A stretch of DNA of 64,000 nt from Leisingera aquaemixtae (GTDB lineage: Bacteria > Pseudomonadota > Alphaproteobacteria > Rhodobacterales > Rhodobacteraceae). The notes under the pieces are model-generated. The model saw only the letters and a program-made list of their open reading frames with translations, was not told the DNA's origin and searched no databases. The stretch is taken from NCBI RefSeq assembly GCF_019801145.1, contig NZ_JAHVJQ010000003.1, positions 372,001 to 436,000 on the forward strand, given 5' to 3'. The position numbers and the translations under genes were made by a program. Positions 1,307-54,190 of the stretch are shown one piece after another (within the stretch, counting starts at the first letter, position 1; each line of letters opens with the position of its first letter).

Positions 1307-1400
1307 TTCATCTGGCTAGAAATATCCCCGGGGGGCAGCCATTGTAGGTGCCATTGGTTCAAGCCCAATGGCCGCGGGGCAGGCGGCCCCCGGCGCTCCC
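1307..1400 (+). repeat. Dispersed intergenic repeat, copy 1 (head plus two hairpins)
   Basis: Directly after ftsY, the head TTCATCTGGCTAGAAATA begins at 1307. It is followed by a hairpin CCATTGG/CCAATGG (1351-1357 with 1365-1371) and a second GC-rich hairpin built on GGGGC/GCCCC (376-380 with 385-389 of the same kilobase). The same architecture recurs at 5302, 52059 and, inverted, at 19735 and 52045, with different hairpin sequences. It may act as a terminator or a structured 3' end. A GTG at 1348 lies inside this element and is not a credible start for the next gene. Confidence 0.7.
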
Positions 1401-3940: not shown

Positions 3941-3953
3941 CCCTGCATCATAT

Positions 3954-4010
3954 CGTGGCGATTTGTTACCGGATTGCGGGCCACGTTAAACAATCCCGCT
4001 AAAGAGGTCA
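3954..4010 (+). promoter_or_regulatory. SAM-II riboswitch upstream of metZ
   Basis: The sequence matches the SAM-II (metA motif) layout. P1 is CGTGGC (3954-3959) with GCCACG (3980-3985), the loop starts GATTTG, and a pseudoknot forms between GGATTG (3971-3976) and CAATCC (3991-3996). The conserved 3' tail CGCTAAAGAGG follows. SAM-II aptamers bind S-adenosylmethionine and repress methionine-biosynthesis genes in Alphaproteobacteria. A terminator lies 12 nt downstream, so control is probably transcriptional. Confidence 0.88.
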
Positions 4011-4021
4011 GGACGTGAAGG

Positions 4022-4054
4022 ACCCCCTTTCGCTTGGCCGAATGGGGGTTTTTT
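4022..4054 (+). terminator. Riboswitch expression-platform terminator
   Basis: ACCCCC (4022-4027) pairs with GGGGGT (4044-4049), extendable towards TCG/CGA inside the loop, and a T tract runs to 4054. The position between the SAM-II aptamer and the metZ start argues for SAM-dependent attenuation. Confidence 0.8.
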
Positions 4055-4084: not shown

Positions 4085-5275
4085 ATGAGCGACAACTGGA
4101 ACAGCCGCACCAAGCTGGTGCATGGCGGCACCCGCCGCAGCCAGTACAACGAGGTGAGCGAGGCGATCTTCCTGACGCAAGGGTTCGTCTACGACAGCGC
4201 CGAGCAGGCCGAGGCACGGTTTATCGAAACCGGCCCGGACGAGTTCATCTATGCCCGCTACGGCAACCCGACCGTCGACATGTTCGAAAAGCGCATCGCG
4301 GCGCTGGAAGGGGCCGAGGATGCCTTTGCCACCGCCTCCGGCATGGCGGCTGTGAACGGCGCGCTGACCTCGCTGGTGAAGGCCGGCGACCACATCGTGT
4401 CCGCCAAGGCGCTGTTCGGCTCCTGCAACTATATCCTGGCGGATGTTCTGGGCCGCTTCGGGGTTGAGGTCACGTTCATCGACGGCACCGATCTGGAGGC
4501 CTGGAAGGCGGCCGTGCGCCCGGACACCAGGGCGGTGTTCTTTGAGAGCATGTCGAACCCGACGCTGGAGGTGATCGACATTGCCGCGGTTGCCGGGATC
4601 GCCCATTCGGTTGGCGCCACGGTGGTGGTGGACAACGTGTTCTCGACCCCGGTGTTCTCCAAAGCGATCGAACAGGGCGCCGATGTGGTGATCTATTCCG
4701 CCACCAAGCATATCGACGGCCAGGGCCGGGCGCTGGGCGGGGTGGTGCTGGGCACCAAGGACTACATTCGCGGCACGCTGGAACCCTACATGAAGCACAC
4801 CGGCGGCTCGCTGAGCCCGTTCAATGCCTGGGTGATGCTGAAGGGTCTGGAAACCCTGTCGCTGCGTGTGAATGCCCAGGCCGAGACCGCGCTGAAAATC
4901 GCGGAAGCGCTGAACGGCCATCCGGCGCTGGAGCGCACCATTTACCCGGGGCTGAAAGACCACGCGCAGAACGCGCTGGTGCAGACCCAGCTGGGCGGCA
5001 AGGGCGGCACCGTGCTGTCGCTGGACCTGAAGGGCGGCAAGGCGGCCGCGTTCAAGTTCCTGAACGCGATGACCATCCCGGTGATCTCCAACAACCTCGG
5101 CGACGCGAAATCCATCGCCACCCACCCGGCGACCACTACCCACCAGCGCCTTACCGATGAGCTGAAGGCGGAGCTGGGCATCACCCCCGGCCTGGTGCGT
5201 TTCTCGGTGGGGCTGGAGGATGCAGACGACCTGATCGCCGACCTCAAGGCGGCTCTGGAAGCCTCGCAGGCGTAA
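4085..5275 (+). CDS. metZ: O-succinylhomoserine sulfhydrylase MetZ
   Basis: A PLP-dependent Cys/Met-metabolism enzyme of 396 residues that makes homocysteine from O-succinylhomoserine and sulfide. Visible blocks include YARYGNPTVDMFEKR, the ATASGMAAVNGAL region, VVDNVFSTP and the PLP-lysine motif YSATKHIDGQGRALGG. The IDGQGR sequence is typical of MetZ rather than MetB/MetC. The ATG at 4085 follows GAGGAGACAGAAG; an earlier in-frame ATG at 4034 lies inside the terminator hairpin and is rejected. The SAM-II riboswitch upstream independently supports a methionine-pathway role. A repeat-type terminator follows the gene. Confidence 0.94.
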   Translation: MSDNWNSRTKLVHGGTRRSQYNEVSEAIFLTQGFVYDSAEQAEARFIETGPDEFIYARYGNPTVDMFEKRIAALEGAEDAFATASGMAAVNGALTSLVKAGDHIVSAKALFGSCNYILADVLGRFGVEVTFIDGTDLEAWKAAVRPDTRAVFFESMSNPTLEVIDIAAVAGIAHSVGATVVVDNVFSTPVFSKAIEQGADVVIYSATKHIDGQGRALGGVVLGTKDYIRGTLEPYMKHTGGSLSPFNAWVMLKGLETLSLRVNAQAETALKIAEALNGHPALERTIYPGLKDHAQNALVQTQLGGKGGTVLSLDLKGGKAAAFKFLNAMTIPVISNNLGDAKSIATHPATTTHQRLTDELKAELGITPGLVRFSVGLEDADDLIADLKAALEASQA

Positions 5276-5301
5276 CGCCGCCTCAGCCGGAAGATCCTTT
5301 A

Positions 5302-5377
5302 TTCATCTGGCTGAAAATATCCTCTGGGGTGAATTGAGCCGCAGGCTCAAGAGGGGGCAGACAGCCCCCTCTCTTTT
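5302..5377 (+). repeat. Dispersed intergenic repeat, copy 2, ending in a terminator
   Basis: The head TTCATCTGGCTGAAAATA begins at 5302 and continues to GGGGTGAATT. It is followed by hairpin TTGAGCC/GGCTCAA (5334-5340 with 5344-5350) and hairpin GAGGGGGC/GCCCCCTC (5351-5358 with 5364-5371), then TCTTTTT. The second hairpin is a good rho-independent terminator for metZ. This is the clearest of the five copies in the window. Confidence 0.75.
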
Positions 5378-5393
5378 TGGGACAGATGCCGGG

Positions 5394-6182
5394 TCAGGAG
5401 GCACGGCCGTAGAAGCCGATGTTCTCCGCATCGGTAAAGCGGACTCCGGGGCGTTCGTAGAAGGTGAAGACGGCGATCACCCGCGTCTTGTCCCCTTTGA
5501 CGGTGCCGACCCGGTGCGGCGAATTCTTGCCGCGGAAGATATTGAGAGTGCCGGGGGCCAGGGTGATCGAGCGCATGTTCGGGTCTTCACCCCGCAGCAG
5601 CCGCTCGACACCTTGGTAATTCGGATCATCATCGCTGCGCAGTTCGGGGCTGTAGATGAACTCGCCGCCTGCCTCGGGCGCCTGCAGCAGCATGGTGGTG
5701 GTGAATTCAGAACGGTCGAAATGCCAGTTCAGCGCCTGCTCGGCGCCGTAGGACATGATGTTCAGCCGCGCCAGCGGGTCGTCCATTGTGTAGAGCGCGG
5801 GCTTGTCCATGGTGGCAGCGAGGAACTCGGCGAAGGGCGGCCAGTCATAGAGCCGCAGAACAGGCGAATCCGGGAACTGGTCGGCGCAGAGGGTGAAGTT
5901 CGAGGTCTCGACCTTTTGCAGCGCCGGGTGGTCCGGCGCCAGCCCCTCGACACTGTCCTTGAAGTAGATGTTGTGGGCGCGCTTGTGGTGGAAACTTTCG
6001 GCTTCGAACTTGCCCTTCAGCGCATCGGCGGCGCCCTGGGCCACCTCCGGCTTCATCAGACCTTCCAGGCTGAACATGCCGTCGGCGGCTAGTTCGGCGC
6101 GGCAGCGGTCCACCAGCGCCTGCCATTCCGGGGTGCCGGGGCGGTCGAGCGGGTAACGGTCGAGATCGAGAATATCGCGCAT
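5394..6182 (-). CDS. 2-oxoglutarate/Fe(II)-dependent oxygenase, HalD/BesD-like fold
   Basis: A 262-residue protein whose C-terminal half carries iron- and 2-oxoglutarate-binding signatures: HFD in LNWHFDRSEFTTTMLLQ (the HxD pair), then a distal His and Arg in NSPHRVGTVKGDKTRV. The length and the FYERPGVRF ending resemble proteins related to the free-amino-acid halogenases, but those have Gly in place of the Asp. The retained Asp predicts a hydroxylase or dioxygenase. The ATG at 6182 is used because the segment upstream of it is promoter-like. It is divergent from a GcvA-type LysR gene (103-bp gap), which probably regulates it. The substrate is unknown. Confidence 0.75.
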   Translation of the reverse strand: MRDILDLDRYPLDRPGTPEWQALVDRCRAELAADGMFSLEGLMKPEVAQGAADALKGKFEAESFHHKRAHNIYFKDSVEGLAPDHPALQKVETSNFTLCADQFPDSPVLRLYDWPPFAEFLAATMDKPALYTMDDPLARLNIMSYGAEQALNWHFDRSEFTTTMLLQAPEAGGEFIYSPELRSDDDPNYQGVERLLRGEDPNMRSITLAPGTLNIFRGKNSPHRVGTVKGDKTRVIAVFTFYERPGVRFTDAENIGFYGRAS

Positions 6183-18407: not shown

Positions 18408-18856
18408 GCACGACATCAAAAGACCGGCTGCGACTGTGGCTGAAGGTGCTGAAGGCCACCAAGGCGGTGGAGAGCGAAGTGCGCGAGAACCTGCGGCGGG
18501 AGTTTGCAACCACGCTGCCGCGGTTTGACGTGATGGCGGCGCTGATGCAGCATGAAAAAGGCTTGAAGATGAGCGAGTTGTCGGGGGTTCTGAAAGTCTC
18601 CAACGGCAATGTGACCGGCATCGTCGAGCGGCTGGTCGAGGACGGCCATGTGCAGCGCGAGAAGGTCGAGGGCGACCGCCGCGCCAATCTGGTGCGGCTG
18701 ACGCAGGCGGGCAAAACCGAATTTTCCCGCCAGGCAGAGGCGCATGAGGGCTGGATCAATGCGGCCTTTGACGGGCTGACAGCGGATGAGGCGCAAGGAA
18801 TTGCCGAGAGCCTGGAAGCGGTGGCGCGGCGGCTGGAAGAGGGAGGCAAGGTATAA
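18404..18856 (+). CDS. MarR family transcriptional regulator of the aromatic-CoA operon
   Basis: A 150-residue winged-helix regulator ([39 protein letters not shown], the basic wing [12 protein letters not shown]). The start is a TTG at 18404 with GGGAGGGG upstream, overlapping the SDR stop codon; no ATG fits the domain start. MarR proteins in such operons are often derepressed by an aromatic acyl-CoA. The palindromes at 15272-15301 are the obvious candidate operator. Because the gene is inside the operon, it would be autoregulated. The effector is inference. Confidence 0.88.
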
Positions 18857-19659
18857 TGGTGAGGAGAGGTGCGACCCATTTCCTGTGCCGGATCGAGGAT
18901 GGCATTGCGACCGTTTCCTTGGACCGGCCGGAGCGGAAGAATCCGCTGACTTTCGACAGCTATGCGGAGCTGCGCGACTGGTTCCGCGACCTGCACTATG
19001 ATGACAGGGTCAAGGCGGTGGTCTTTGCCTCCAACGGCGGCAATTTCTGCTCCGGCGGCGATGTGCATGACATCATCGGGCCGCTGACGAAGATGAGCAT
19101 GAAGGAGCTGCTGGCCTTCACCCGGATGACCGGCGATCTGGTCAAGGCGATGGTGAATTGCGGCAAGCCGGTGATTGCGGCGATTGACGGCATCTGCGTC
19201 GGCGCAGGCGCGATCATCGCCATGGCCTCCGACATCCGGATTGCCACGCCGGAGGCCAAGACCGCGTTTCTGTTCACCCGGGTCGGGCTGGCGGGCTGCG
19301 ACATGGGCGCCTGCGCGATCCTGCCGCGGATCATCGGCCAGGGCCGGGCGGCGGAGCTCTTGTACACGGGCCGTTCGATGAGCGCCGAAGAGGGCCACGC
19401 CTGGGGCTTTCACAACAAGCTGGTTGCGGCGGACGAGCTGGAAGCGGAGGCGCAGAGCTGGGCCGCGCGGATCGCTTCGGGTCCGAACTTCGGCCACATG
19501 ATGACCAAGACCATGCTGGCGCAGGAATGGTCGATGTCGATCGAGCAGGCGATCGAGGCCGAGGCGCAGGCGCAGGCGATCTGCATGCAGACGGCGGATT
19601 TCGAACGCGCCTACCATGCCTTTGTGAACAAGGAAAAGCCGCTGTTCGAAGGCGACTGA
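18856..19659 (+). CDS. Enoyl-CoA hydratase/isomerase family protein
   Basis: A 267-residue crotonase-fold enzyme. The oxyanion-hole segments are [14 protein letters not shown] (about 60-73) and [19 protein letters not shown], followed by [20 protein letters not shown]. Its ATG shares a base with the marR stop (TAATG), so it is translationally linked. It probably hydrates or opens a ring-derived CoA ester in the 2-aminobenzoyl-CoA pathway. The exact reaction cannot be fixed from sequence, since crotonases also include isomerases and hydrolases. Confidence 0.86.
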
Positions 19660-19677
19660 GGTGTGACACCGCTGGAG

Positions 19678-19735
19678 CCCGCGCCGGAGGAGGGCGCGGG
19701 AGCCTCCGGCGGGAGTATTTTGGGAAAGATGAAAC
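19678..19735 (-). repeat. Dispersed intergenic repeat, copy 3 (inverted)
   Basis: Read on the minus strand, the head TTTCATCTTTCCCAAAATAC is followed by a stem CCCGCGCC/GGCGCGGG (19678-19685 with 19693-19700). It sits between the enoyl-CoA hydratase and acyl-CoA dehydrogenase genes, and its plus-strand end supplies part of the leader just before the next ribosome site (GGGAGGG). It is the most diverged of the five copies. Confidence 0.55.
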
Positions 19736-19750: not shown

Positions 19751-20911
19751 ATGGCGGACAGGACGTTTCTGAACTGGCCGTTTTTCGAGGACCGGCACCG
19801 GAAGCTGGCCGAAGAACTGGAAGCCTGGGCCGCGGCGCAGCTGGCGGGCATCGATCATTCCGACACCGATGCCGCCTGCCGGGTGTTGGTCACAGCACTG
19901 GGCGAGGGCGGCTGGACGCAGCATTCCGGCGCGATGGCGGGCGAGCAGCTGGATGTGCGCAGCCTGTGCCTGATCCGCGAGACGCTGGCGCGCCATGACG
20001 GGCTGGCGGATTTTGCCTTTGCCATGCAGGGGCTGGGCACCGGGGCGATCTCGCTGTTCGGCACGGCGGAGCAGCAGGCGGAGTGGCTGCCGCTCACGCG
20101 CGCGGGCAAGGCGGTTTCAGCCTTTGCCCTGACCGAACCGCAGTCAGGGTCGGATGTGGCGAACTCCACCATGACCGCGACACTGGACGGCGGCACCTAT
20201 ATTCTGAACGGTGAAAAGACGTGGATCTCCAACGGCGGCATTGCTGATGTCTACACGCTGTTTGCCCGCACCGGCGAGGCACCGGGCGCCAAGGGGCTGA
20301 GCGCCTTTGTTGTGCCCGCAGGCCTGCCGGGGTTCGAGGTCGTGGAACGGCTGGAAACCATCGCGCCGCATCCGCTGGCAACGCTGCGGTTCAGCGATTG
20401 CCGGATCCCGAAATCGGCGCTGCTGGGGCAGCCGGGCGCGGGCTTCAAGATTGCGATGTCGGTGCTGGATGTGTTCCGCTCCACCGTGGCTGCCGCCGCC
20501 CTGGGCTTTGCCCGCCGGGCGCTGGACGAGTCGCTGGCGCGGGTGACTGCGCGGCAGGTGCAAGGGGCGCCGCTGTTCGATCTGCAGATGGTGCAGGGGC
20601 ATATCGCCGATATGGCGCTGGATGTGGATGCATCGGCATTGCTGGTTTACCGCGCCGCCTGGGCCAAGGATTCAGGTGCGGCGCGCGTCACCCGCGAGGC
20701 GGCGATGGCCAAGCTGTTTTCCACCGACCAGGCGCAGCAAGTCATCGACAAAGCGGTGCAGCTGCATGGCGGCGACGGCGTGCGCCGGGGCCAGAAGGTG
20801 GAGGAGCTCTACCGCGATATCCGGGCCTTGCGCATTTACGAGGGCGCTTCGGACGTGCAGCGGGTGGTGATCGCGCGCCAGGCGCTCGGCGCCTTTCAGG
20901 GAGGGAATTGA
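19751..20911 (+). CDS. Acyl-CoA dehydrogenase
   Basis: A 386-residue FAD enzyme with the family blocks [30 protein letters not shown] and the C-terminal [20 protein letters not shown]. The likely catalytic base is the Glu in [10 protein letters not shown]. It oxidises an acyl-CoA at the alpha-beta bond and passes electrons to ETF. By position it should desaturate an alicyclic or opened-ring CoA ester in the operon's pathway. The ATG at 19751 is preceded by GGGAGGGCCGCGCG. It lies 1 bp from the ligase gene. Confidence 0.9.
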
Positions 20912-51315: not shown

Positions 51316-51989
51316 TGACGGCTGATCAGCCAGGCGCCGTTTGGCACCCCAGCCCGAATTTCGGGCCCCGCAGGGATGGCCTGACGCCGTCCCTGATCGT
51401 TTTGCACTACACCGCGATGGACAGTGCCGCGGCCGCGCTGGACCGGCTTTGCGATCCGGCGGCCGAGGTTTCCGCCCACTACCTGATCGGTGCGGACGGC
51501 GGCCTGTGGCAGATGGTGGCGGAAGACAGCCGCGCCTGGCACGCAGGCGCCGGCGAATGGGCCGGGCAGGCGGACATCAACTCCCGCTCCATCGGCATTG
51601 AGCTCGACAACCACGGCACCCATCCGTTCAGCGAACCGCAGATGGCGGCGCTGGAAGCGCTGATGCGCGGCATCATGCAGCGCCGGGACATCCCGCCTGC
51701 GGGGGTGATCGGCCATTCCTGCATGGCGCCGGGACGCAAATGCGACCCCGGCCCGCGTTTCGACTGGGCGCGCCTGGCCCGGCTTGGGCTGGCCGCGGGA
51801 GGCTTCGGGGCGCCGCAGCCGCAGAGCATGAAATTTGAGGACTTCCGCCAAGCCGCCGCCGCGGCCGGTTTCACGGCACCTGCTGATGATCGAACGCTTC
51901 TGGCGGCTGTGCGGCTGCGGTTCCGGCCCTGGGCGCGCGGCCCGCTCTCGGCAGAAGACTTTCTGCCTTTGCATCCGCTGGTCCGCTAA
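51315..51989 (+). CDS. N-acetylmuramoyl-L-alanine amidase, AmiD/Amidase_2 family
   Basis: A 224-residue zinc amidase that cuts between MurNAc and the stem peptide. It has IVLHYTAMDSAAAAL (first His), ADGGLWQMVAEDSRAWHAG (second His), NSRSIGIELDNHG and IGHSCMAPGRKCDPG (third zinc ligand and catalytic residues). The C-terminal helical part resembles a peptidoglycan-binding region. There is no signal peptide, which suggests cytoplasmic recycling or export by another route. Its ATG overlaps the lipoprotein stop. Confidence 0.9.
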   Translation: MTADQPGAVWHPSPNFGPRRDGLTPSLIVLHYTAMDSAAAALDRLCDPAAEVSAHYLIGADGGLWQMVAEDSRAWHAGAGEWAGQADINSRSIGIELDNHGTHPFSEPQMAALEALMRGIMQRRDIPPAGVIGHSCMAPGRKCDPGPRFDWARLARLGLAAGGFGAPQPQSMKFEDFRQAAAAAGFTAPADDRTLLAAVRLRFRPWARGPLSAEDFLPLHPLVR

Positions 51990-52000
51990 GGGGGGCTTAT

Positions 52001-52045
52001 GCGAGGCTCTGCCTCGCGCTCCGGGATATTGGGGGCCAGATGAAG
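52001..52045 (-). repeat. Dispersed intergenic repeat, copy 4 (inverted, head-to-head with copy 5)
   Basis: Read on the minus strand, the head CTTCATCTGGCCCCCAATAT is followed by hairpin GCGAGGC/GCCTCGC (52011-52017 with 52001-52007). It starts 12 bp after the amidase stop. The next copy runs the other way 14 bp further on. Confidence 0.7.
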
Positions 52046-52058
52046 AGCGGATCCATTA

Positions 52059-52119
52059 TTCATCTGGCTGGAAATATCCTGGGGTGAATTGGCCCTTCGC
52101 CAAAAGGGGCAAAGCCCCT
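52059..52119 (+). repeat. Dispersed intergenic repeat, copy 5
   Basis: The head TTCATCTGGCTGGAAATA begins at 52059 and continues to GGGGTGAATT. It is followed by hairpin TTGGC/GCCAA (52089-52093 with 52099-52103) and hairpin AGGGGC/GCCCCT (52105-52110 with 52114-52119). Its layout matches copy 2 (5302) with different stem sequences. It lies just upstream of the rnpB promoter. Confidence 0.75.
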
Positions 52120-52171: not shown

Positions 52172-52585
52172 CGCGCAGAAGGCTGGATGGCCGCCGGCGC
52201 GGGGGGAGCCCCGTGCGGGAGGAAAGTCCGGACTCCATGAAGCAGCGGTGCCGGGTAACGCCCGGGCGGGGAAACCCGACGGAAAGCGCCACAGAAAACA
52301 GACCGCCAGCCCCCGGGCTGGTAAGGGTGAAACGGTGGGGTAAGAGCCCACCGCGCCCCTGGCAACAGGGGCGGCACGGCAAGCCCCACCGGGAGCAATG
52401 CCAAATAGGGTCCCCGCGCGGGCAGGTTCCGGTTCGCCGGAAAACCGCCGCTAGGTTCGCTTCAGCCGAGAGGGACCGGGTTGGCAGCTTGAGCGGCGCA
52501 GCAATGCGCCGCCTAGATGAATGGCCATCGATCCCTGCCTTACGGGGCAGGGGGGACAGGATCCGGCTTACAGGCCTTCTGCGCG
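52172..52585 (+). ncRNA. rnpB: RNase P RNA (type A, alphaproteobacterial)
   Basis: The RNA subunit of ribonuclease P, which cleaves tRNA 5' leaders. Diagnostic segments are GGAGGAAAGTCCGGACTCC, ACAGAAAACAGACCGCC, GGTAAGGGTGAAACGGTG, GGTAAGAGCCCACCGC and the 3' part AGATGAATGGCCATC with CCGGCTTACAGG. Helix P1 is CGCGCAGAAGGC (52172-52183) with GCCTTCTGCGCG (52574-52585), followed by TTTTT. Length about 414 nt. The last 18 nt overlap the end of the convergent cyclase gene. Confidence 0.96.
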
Positions 52586-54190
52586 TTTTTCCGGTTCATA
52601 GGCAGCGGCTGCTCCGGGTATGCCCTTCAACTCGAAACTGCCGGCTTTCTGCAGACCGGCGCCAATGGCCTTGGCGGTGGCCTCGCACAGCAGGATCTGC
52701 CCGCTTTGCGCCTGCTCGCAGAGCCGGGCCGCCAGGTTCGGCGCCGCGCCGATTGCCGCATAGTCCAGCCGCCCTTCGAAACCGATCTGGCCCAGCGTCG
52801 CCTCGCCGGTGGCAATCCCGATCCCTAGGCCGATCCGGCTGCCGCCGGTTTGAAAAGGTCTCAGGGCCTCGGGAAAGGCCGCCTGCATCTGCTGCGCCAG
52901 CGCCAGCGCCTGCCCGGCCGGATCCTCGCAGGGCAGCGGCGCGTTGAACAGAACCAGGAGCCCGTCGCCCAGAAACCGCTCCAGCGTGCCGCCCGCCTGA
53001 TCAATCAGCGGCCCGGCGGTCTGGTGAAAGGCGTTGAGCGCCGCAATCACCTGTTCCGGGGCAACCGCACTGGCAAAGGCGGTGAAGCCCCGCAGGTCTG
53101 CAAACAGAACCGTCACGGTGCGGCGCTGGCTGTTCAGCAGGGCGTTGCCGTCACCCGCGTTCACGATCATCGCCGCCACCGGCTCCGGCAGGAAACGGCG
53201 CAGCCGGTTGGTTCGCTCCAGCTCGGCGACCTGATGCGCCACCTTGCGCTCCAGCTGGCTGTTCCAGGTCCTCAGCTCCTCCTTCTGCGCATTGACCTCC
53301 TCGTACAGCGCGCCCAGCTCCCGGCTCATGCTGTTCGCGTTCCTGGCCAGCCCGCCGAATTCATCCCGGTTGGGAACAGCGGCCCTGGCAGTGAAATTGC
53401 CGGAGGCGACTGCGCTCAGCGTGCGGCCGATCTGCTCCACCGGCCAGAGCACGGAGGAGGAGATCGCATAACCCGCCAGCAGCGACAGCAGGACCGCGGC
53501 CACGCTGGCCCCGATGACCAGAGCGCGGGCACGCGCGTAGGCCTGGGCGGTCTCCTGCGCGCGCAGGTTCATCCGCCGTTCGATGTCCTTGGCGATTGTA
53601 TAGGCATCGCGCTGCAGACTCAGGGCGATCGGGGTGAACTGCTTTTCCACCAGTTCGGCAACACGCGCCGTGCCGCCGGTCCGCCGGGCCTGCGCAAGGG
53701 CCGTTGCGGCAGGCGGCAGTCGCTGCGCGGTCCGCTGCAGTGCCGGCAGCCGCTGATCCCTGGGCAGGTTCTGAAGCTCCACCTGCCGCGCGTGGCGGGC
53801 AACGATGACGGTCAGGTCATTGGCTTCATTCAGCGCCTGGGCCAAGGGCAGCCCCATGCGGCCCGGGGTCTTGGACGTGCTGGCCATGGCAAACACCAAG
53901 GCGTCGCCTGCGCTTTGATAGATGCGGTTATAGGCTGCGATCTGCTGCTGATCGCGGATCAGCTGCCGGGTCCGCTCATTGGCCTGCAGCAGCGTCTGCA
54001 GCCCCAGCAGCGCAAGCACAATCACCAGGCCGGTTCCGGTCAGAAAGGCGGCCAGCAGCTTGTGCCGCAGCGAAACCGCCAGACCGGCCACTGCGCGCAC
54101 CAGAAGATTCGGCTGCTGGGCTAAGTGGCTGGAATCCCCGGGTTCGGGCATCGGCAGGGCTTTCGGTCTGTGGCGCGGATCTTCAGCCAT
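52568..54190 (-). CDS. Membrane-bound class III adenylate/guanylate cyclase with HAMP-like linker
   Basis: A 540-residue sensor cyclase. A first membrane helix (about 45-67) precedes a periplasmic or extracytoplasmic helical sensor domain. A second helix (about 225-247) leads into a HAMP-like segment and a coiled linker ([19 protein letters not shown]). The class III catalytic domain follows: [24 protein letters not shown] and [17 protein letters not shown]. The two metal Asp residues are in FADLRG and LGDGLL. It should make cAMP (or cGMP) in response to an unknown signal. Its last codons overlap the 3' strand of rnpB. Confidence 0.9.

Follow-up and report, generated by a model that had tools for sequence, protein, structure and literature searches.

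Genome-specific head words and hairpin tails in a dispersed gene-end element of Rhodobacteraceae

Beyond the stop codon of an O-succinylhomoserine sulfhydrylase gene in Leisingera aquaemixtae lies a short element whose first bases recur between other genes, followed by one or two hairpins. What such an element does at gene ends, and whether it is kept there by the host or merely tolerated, is the question addressed here. The window analysed is a stretch of 64,000 nucleotides (contig NZ_JAHVJQ010000003.1, positions 372,001 to 436,000, of assembly GCF_019801145.1, hereafter the home genome), for which a preliminary description had listed five intergenic copies and had offered three readings of them: as a terminator peculiar to the family, as an element of mRNA 3' ends or as a small mobile repeat.

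Anatomy of the element in its home genome

The element is composed of a 21-bp head, TTCATCT-XXC-NNN-AAATA-YYC, and a GC-rich hairpin tail. All five copies listed earlier are present in the window, as are all of the stem sequences quoted for them; the starts at 1307, 5302 and 52059 on the plus strand hold, while those placed at 52045 and 19735 correspond to heads at 52024-52044 and 19713-19733. Four of the five heads belong to a GGC...ATATCC class (TTCATCTGGC-NNN-AAATATCC or a near variant). The 19733 copy is a member of a second class, and the common head first proposed, TTCATCTGGCTGAAAATA, fits it only loosely.

The first head (1307..1327, plus strand) lies 7 nt past the ftsY stop codon (TGA, 1297-1299), and its hairpin tail (1328..1394) holds an optional CCATTGG...CCAATGG module at 1351-1371 (stems 1351-1357 and 1365-1371), flanked by two G runs. 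At ftsY, no compared genome other than the home genome and G011 has this module; tails similar to that of the 1307 copy also occur at other loci of G038 (L060, L064). The second GGC-class head (5302..5322, plus strand) begins 26 nt past the O-succinylhomoserine sulfhydrylase gene (4085-5275) and is followed at 5334..5378 by two hairpins, 5334-5350 (TTGAGCC/GGCTCAA, 5334-5340/5344-5350) and 5351-5371 (GAGGGGGC/GCCCCCTC, 5351-5358/5364-5371), and by the T-rich stretch (5372-5378) that had been described as a T tract, with a convergent gene ending at 5394. A SAM_alpha riboswitch is found upstream of the same sulfhydrylase gene, at 3945-4023.

The second-class head, TTCATCTTTCCCAAAATACTC (pattern TTCATCTTTC-NNN-AAATACTC; TTC class), is on the minus strand at 19713..19733, between the plus-strand genes for an enoyl-CoA hydratase (18856-19659) and an acyl-CoA dehydrogenase (19751-20911). 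Its tail, at 19673..19712 on the same minus strand, consists of a small CTCC-CGCC-GGAG hairpin and a larger CCCGCGCC/GGCGCGGG hairpin. The last two copies are not independent of one another; together they make up one head-to-head composite. Its left tail (52001..52023, minus; a GCGAGGC/GCCTCGC hairpin and a linker) begins 11 nt past the stop codon of an AmpD-like gene that ends at 51989, and is followed by the left head (52024..52044, minus), a 14-bp spacer (52045..52058) containing GGATCC at 52049-52054, the right head (52059..52079, plus) and a right tail of two hairpins (52080..52119, plus) in which the TTGGC/GCCAA and AGGGGC/GCCCCT stems both fall within 52089-52119. The RNase P RNA gene (52175-52586) lies directly downstream of this composite. 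The notion that most copies lie just after a stop codon is correct, on their own strand, for the 1307 and 5302 heads; in the 19733 and 52044 copies it is the tail, not the head, that adjoins the stop codon.

Throughout the 4.88-Mb home genome, 49 heads fit the exact pattern TTCATCTNNCNNNAAATANYC, of which, as counted from their listing, 18 are GGC, 30 TTC and one TCC. With up to three mismatches allowed, 205 heads are found, as against 25 for a reversed control pattern, an excess well beyond chance. The two variable parts of the head are coupled: all 18 exact GGC heads end in TCC or CCC, and 29 of the 30 TTC heads end in CTC. Logos built from 71 TTC-class and 37 GGC-class copies (home genome and G011) have about 19 informative positions and two or three free ones. 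A further spelling, TTCACCTTTG...ATACTC, is seen in about 10 copies among the listed two-mismatch matches of the home genome (L126-L135, for example).

No named RNA family had been proposed for the element at the outset, and the Rfam searches give none: the whole window gives four matches, none of them at an element copy, the matches to 5200-5450 up to an E-value of 5 are all below gathering scores, and six loci give no matches whatever. Nor did we find the element described in the literature searched, a scope that takes in neither most subscription papers nor bioRxiv preprints. A comparable hairpin motif, HRC-8-4, is reported solely from Rhodobacterales (PMC8632094). It is set apart from our element by its place, mainly between cco operons, and by its description in the part of that source used here, where it is a stem resembling a terminator, with conservation at the tip nucleotides and no mention of a dispersed head (PMC8632094).

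Distribution, gene context and head-to-head pairs

One GTDB family accounts for nearly all of the repeat, which is common there and very rare in the other families sampled. The exact pattern TTCATCTNNCNNNAAATA is present in 53 of 148 genomes, namely 49 of 91 from the family and four of 57 from the other families of the class, and the reversed control yields four matches in total over all 148. Both the supposed restriction to the family and the existence of further copies in related genomes are borne out by these numbers. Every one of the 21 genomes of the genus carries the exact pattern, in 11 to 83 copies. A looser pattern, TTCNTCTNNNNNNAAATAYYCC, extends the total to 59 of 148 genomes, 58 of those in the family, including some with another head spelling. 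In a scan of named genomes at least 119 stretches matched; among the 80 listed, titles assign 71 to Rhodobacterales, three to Proteobacteria only and six to unrelated organisms, and by eye the G-rich tail is absent from those six.

Plasmids carry the element as well. The 5302 copy, used as a query, has matches in 38 plasmid records, the most frequent genera being Paracoccus (15), Leisingera (11) and Phaeobacter (7). Between them, this search and the scan of named genomes give matches in Roseovarius, Ruegeria, Leisingera, Phaeobacter, Rhodobacter and Paracoccus, among others. In none of the 30 rows listed does an annotated feature lie beneath the match (one of these records carries no annotation). 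The head pattern is also seen in 35 viral stretches, with a G-rich tail like that of the element in about nine by eye and without one in the rest; the viral copies that do have the tail (L334, L339, L341 and L351, for example) may belong to host DNA that flanks a provirus, or the phages may carry them.

The gene-end location first proposed is confirmed on a larger scale. With gene positions taken from a home-made, annotation-free caller, 155 heads from three genomes are intergenic, and 152 of these border on the 3' end of a gene, whichever way the element points; one further head is called inside a gene and two lie at locus edges. Of the gaps concerned, 58 are convergent, 61 tandem tail-to-head (with the tail on the side of the preceding gene), 33 tandem head-to-tail and three divergent, totals drawn from a table that was compiled with two-mismatch patterns, mixes the classes and is used here for context alone. 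The tandem excess of 61 to 33 is modest (about p = 0.005 by our own arithmetic). In the home genome, two of 89 heads occupy divergent gaps, compared with 43 divergent gaps among the 228 of at least 40 nt at the same loci, a background that is indicative only, the loci having been picked for holding heads. All six annotated plasmid copies lie between annotated genes, and five of them adjoin the 3' end of one. Two of the six come from a single gene pair that two Leisingera species share; the copy on a Ruegeria TM1040 plasmid sits in an apparently divergent gap. A promoter reading was rejected because heads also occur between convergent genes.

Where two heads are close, they face each other. The G011 chromosome list contains eight neighbouring heads within 200 bp, and all eight are head to head (0.3 would be expected under uniform placement); in the loci fetched from the home genome and G011, the same is true of 11 of 11 close pairs. 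In GGC-class pairs, four from the home genome and six from G011, the spacer measures 14 bp in nine of ten, as in the window composite at 52024-52079, and 109 bp in one. By eye, GGATCC or a variant of it is present in most of the pair spacers read, and one arm of the pair often bears a nearly identical tail. The spacers of TTC-class pairs are variable, from 12 to 134 bp. Neither this pairing nor the two classes, nor the genome-specific words taken up below, had been seen in the preliminary description. At three loci in two genera (L044, L058 and L066, at about 1500-1660), a conserved stretch, CCTGCGGTACAGG...GCCGATGACCGCG, is found between two divergent heads some 120-140 bp apart, with neither an Rfam match nor a tRNA in it.

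Inherited sites and local words

The element is inherited at three orthologous sites, and at two of these across genera. The first is the 3' side of the enoyl-CoA hydratase gene, where a recognisable element is present in all 21 genomes of the genus. Three of these have a GGA-type head (two with GCC, one with GCA), and in six (G012, G014, G018, G013, G017 and G009) the short hairpin is replaced by a longer tail module, near-identical copies of which are found at the unrelated loci L013, L021 and L023. On the tree of this locus, the GGC word needs at least two changes. Switching of the word here is therefore likely, and we put it no more firmly because the starred branches of the tree force only one change.

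At ftsY, 17 genomes of the genus, the home genome included, are syntenic, and the element is present in 14 of them, in one case degraded; in the other three (G014, G007 and G018) there is a short gap instead, so that filled and empty sites coexist within one genus. Comparing the two by eye, no clear target duplication is seen. Gene order is altered in four genomes of the genus. Among nine other genera, about 60 nt or less separate the ftsY stop codon from a head in four (G083, G022, G026 and G122), and in G040 the gene order is kept and the element is absent.

The third site lies between a MoxR ATPase gene and a VWA gene. The latter is present in 23 of the 30 genomes searched, with the MoxR ATPase gene directly upstream in 19, and besides the home genome a head can be recognised by eye in 15 of these 19, two of the 15 being degraded. 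In 13 of the 15, six or more stem pairs follow one another without a break. No head is seen by eye in the remaining four (G090, G021, G034 and G027), and in G118 the element precedes the VWA gene with another gene next upstream. As syntenic genomes without a copy are seen at ftsY and likewise at MoxR/VWA, the element is dispensable at each of these sites. At every site compared, its orientation is constant.

Differences between paralogous stems, on which an early claim of covariation had been based, are not covariation. At the MoxR/VWA and hydratase sites, though, stem pairing is kept through two-sided changes between orthologous copies. For MoxR/VWA, nine sequences were aligned over eight pairs, leaving out site sequences whose tails would not align with the nine (a 12-row alignment was also made); they are 100% paired, and two of the pairs are changed on both sides. 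Their covariation score of 0.264 exceeds that of shuffled alignments (0.146; none of 500 as high) and of slides (at most 0.125), while 145 of 500 shuffles reach as many two-sided pair changes. The hydratase test covers 15 of the 21 sequences, omitting the six with the longer tail, and 12 pairs; 90% are paired and three pairs are changed on both sides, the covariation score being attained by three of 500 shuffles and the both-side change count by 54 of 500.

Genomes also prefer words of their own. The 89 heads listed for G022 comprise 78 with TTCTTCTGTC, seven with TTCTTCTCTG, two with TTCTTCTTGG and two with TTCTACTGTC, and here, too, the classes are coupled, the seven CTG heads ending in ACTCC and the GTC heads in ATCCC. 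G025 has 106 heads, and the 17 listed read either TTCATCTCTT...ACTCC (12) or TTCTTCTGTT...ATCCC (5), two spellings that differ jointly at three places. All 16 heads of G121 are TTCCTCTTGC, and 13 of 15 in G096 start with TTCTTCTCG; G010 is not uniform, with at least five spellings mixed.

Old copies seem to follow the current word of the genome in which they reside. G022 and G122 each show their local word (TTCTTCTGTC and TTCATCTTGC, respectively) at both ftsY and MoxR/VWA, and in G025 and G093 the MoxR/VWA head is again the local word. The local word is not followed at MoxR/VWA in G040, and the head of G119 is there too degraded to be judged. When the home genome is compared with G004 at MoxR/VWA, the tail is nearly identical and the head word different, so the head seems to change independently. 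Local words at inherited sites are what one would expect from a trans-acting reader of drifting specificity; the main alternative is conversion between dispersed copies, which could be another way to rewrite words.

A proposed REP/BIME-like gene-end element and its rivals

The REP and BIME elements of enterobacteria and pseudomonads are dispersed intergenic units with a conserved head and a palindrome, which form inverted pairs, lie at gene ends and fall into genome-specific families. The REP head is short, a few bases of GTAG type. Our element has in common with these the many dispersed, palindrome-bearing intergenic copies, the inverted pairing (all eight and all 11 close pairs of the two samples above being head to head), the gene-end location and the genome-specific families. 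It differs in its longer, asymmetric head of 21 bp with about 19 informative positions, in the coupling of its classes, and in that some of its sites are inherited across genera with a changed head word. A search for the REP transposase (Y1_Tnp, PF01797) gives no match in the home genome, the control search being positive in five of 14 named genomes. For all of these reasons we regard the element as a new REP/BIME-like variant by resemblance, not as a member.

The reading that we favour, at roughly even chances, is a family-specific gene-end element of this kind, with a head that would be read by a putative DNA-binding factor and a tail that would protect or delimit mRNA. The genome-specific spelling suggests a factor that reads the words: the 21-bp double-stranded head would be bound by a sequence-specific protein, and several genomes contain two or more coupled classes, as if at least two factors read them. 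Once bound, a head would work whichever way it points, which would explain the orientation independence of the element. Upon transcription of the 3' region, the palindrome would form an mRNA hairpin that would shield the upstream gene's transcript or set its limit, or else reduce read-through into the gene that follows. Such roles, the protection of transcripts or their division into segments, are common for hairpins that lie between cistrons or at the 3' ends of mRNAs. Folding is concentrated in the tail: relative to shuffled sequence, the mean z over 126 copies of a contig scan is -1.24 on the tail side and 0.00 on the head side, and for the convergent and tandem classes it is -0.88 to -1.49 vs -0.15 to -0.40. 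The wobble counts, though, go against what an mRNA-strand hairpin predicts, in that no strand preference is seen over all copies (for tandem copies, GT 25 and AC 27 with the element pointing one way, GT 7 and AC 6 with it reversed), and a strand-specific RNA is therefore not claimed. New copies seem to come from the copying of units and composites, old ones to be inherited with their gene pair while their heads tend towards the current word of the genome.

The copying could also be the whole story. The miniature mobile repeat proposed at the outset would have no host function; some transposase would copy it, insertions into genes and promoters would be purged and those at gene ends would survive, so that purging, too, predicts the gene-end bias. 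Part of this proposal is well founded, since unrelated loci share tail modules, the composite has one arm with a near-constant tail and mostly a fixed spacer (14 bp in nine of ten GGC pairs), and one empty-site polymorphism, at ftsY, is seen within a genus. Against it, the same gene pairs retain the element across genera, some sites being old and inherited, and the pairing is kept by two-sided changes; inherited sites can bear another word on nearly the same tail, as in the home genome and G004, and the home genome is without a Y1_Tnp transposase. A repeat without any host function is, on balance, a rather unlikely explanation.

A family of intrinsic or bidirectional terminators, in which the hairpin would precede the TATTT part of the head and which would be read from tail to head, we consider decidedly improbable. 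Such a family would account for the 58 of 155 copies between convergent genes and for the tail-to-head excess in tandem gaps (61 vs 33), and by eye some copies abut an apparently good terminator (L017, L035, L039). As in intrinsic terminators, a GC-rich hairpin follows the stop codon, and one window copy ends T-rich (PMC1852404, TransTermHP). Unlike terminators as that source characterises them, most copies are without a T run in a simple scan, and they have a conserved head and occur in either orientation (PMC1852404). The scan, a crude script applied to 154 copies (155 less one duplicate), finds a hairpin with a T run past the motif in the tail-to-head direction in six, in the opposite direction in three and with the tract inside the motif in two, and a general role as intrinsic terminator, as first suggested, is not supported. 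The orientation at ftsY and MoxR/VWA is moreover opposite to that required, and conserved; many copies leave just about 15-50 nt before the next gene in the same direction; and RNA polymerase alone does not explain genome-specific words. A separate idea, that the TATTT part is a site for RNase E, an enzyme with an AU preference (PMC6238624), was set aside, since no TATTT is seen by eye in the sense strand of the inherited head-to-tail sites.

Very improbable, finally, is a DNA-uptake-type tag read in gene transfer as in Neisseriaceae, whose uptake sequences, in the part of PMC3630211 drawn on here, likewise have genome-specific dialects, inverted pairs tied to gene ends and sometimes two co-occurring words, and yet number thousands, many of them inside genes, and have no hairpin tails in the system as described. 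The genomes seen here hold at most some 200 copies each, nearly all intergenic and with hairpin tails.

To the favoured reading of a gene-end element recognised by a DNA-binding factor we add, more tentatively and as a possibility, that it forms a marking system with drifting dialects. Each genome would have one or more putative factors with a 21-bp word of their own at dozens to a couple of hundred sites, and as the specificity drifted, even sites older than the split of genera would be rewritten in concert. If this is true, an ecologically important bacterial family has a widespread gene-end feature that we did not find described in the literature searched. As a caution, a short hairpin at the end of a gene in this family should not be taken simply for a terminator. 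The predicted factor should be findable by pull-down, and the dialects would constitute a natural experiment on the co-evolution of a factor with its many sites.
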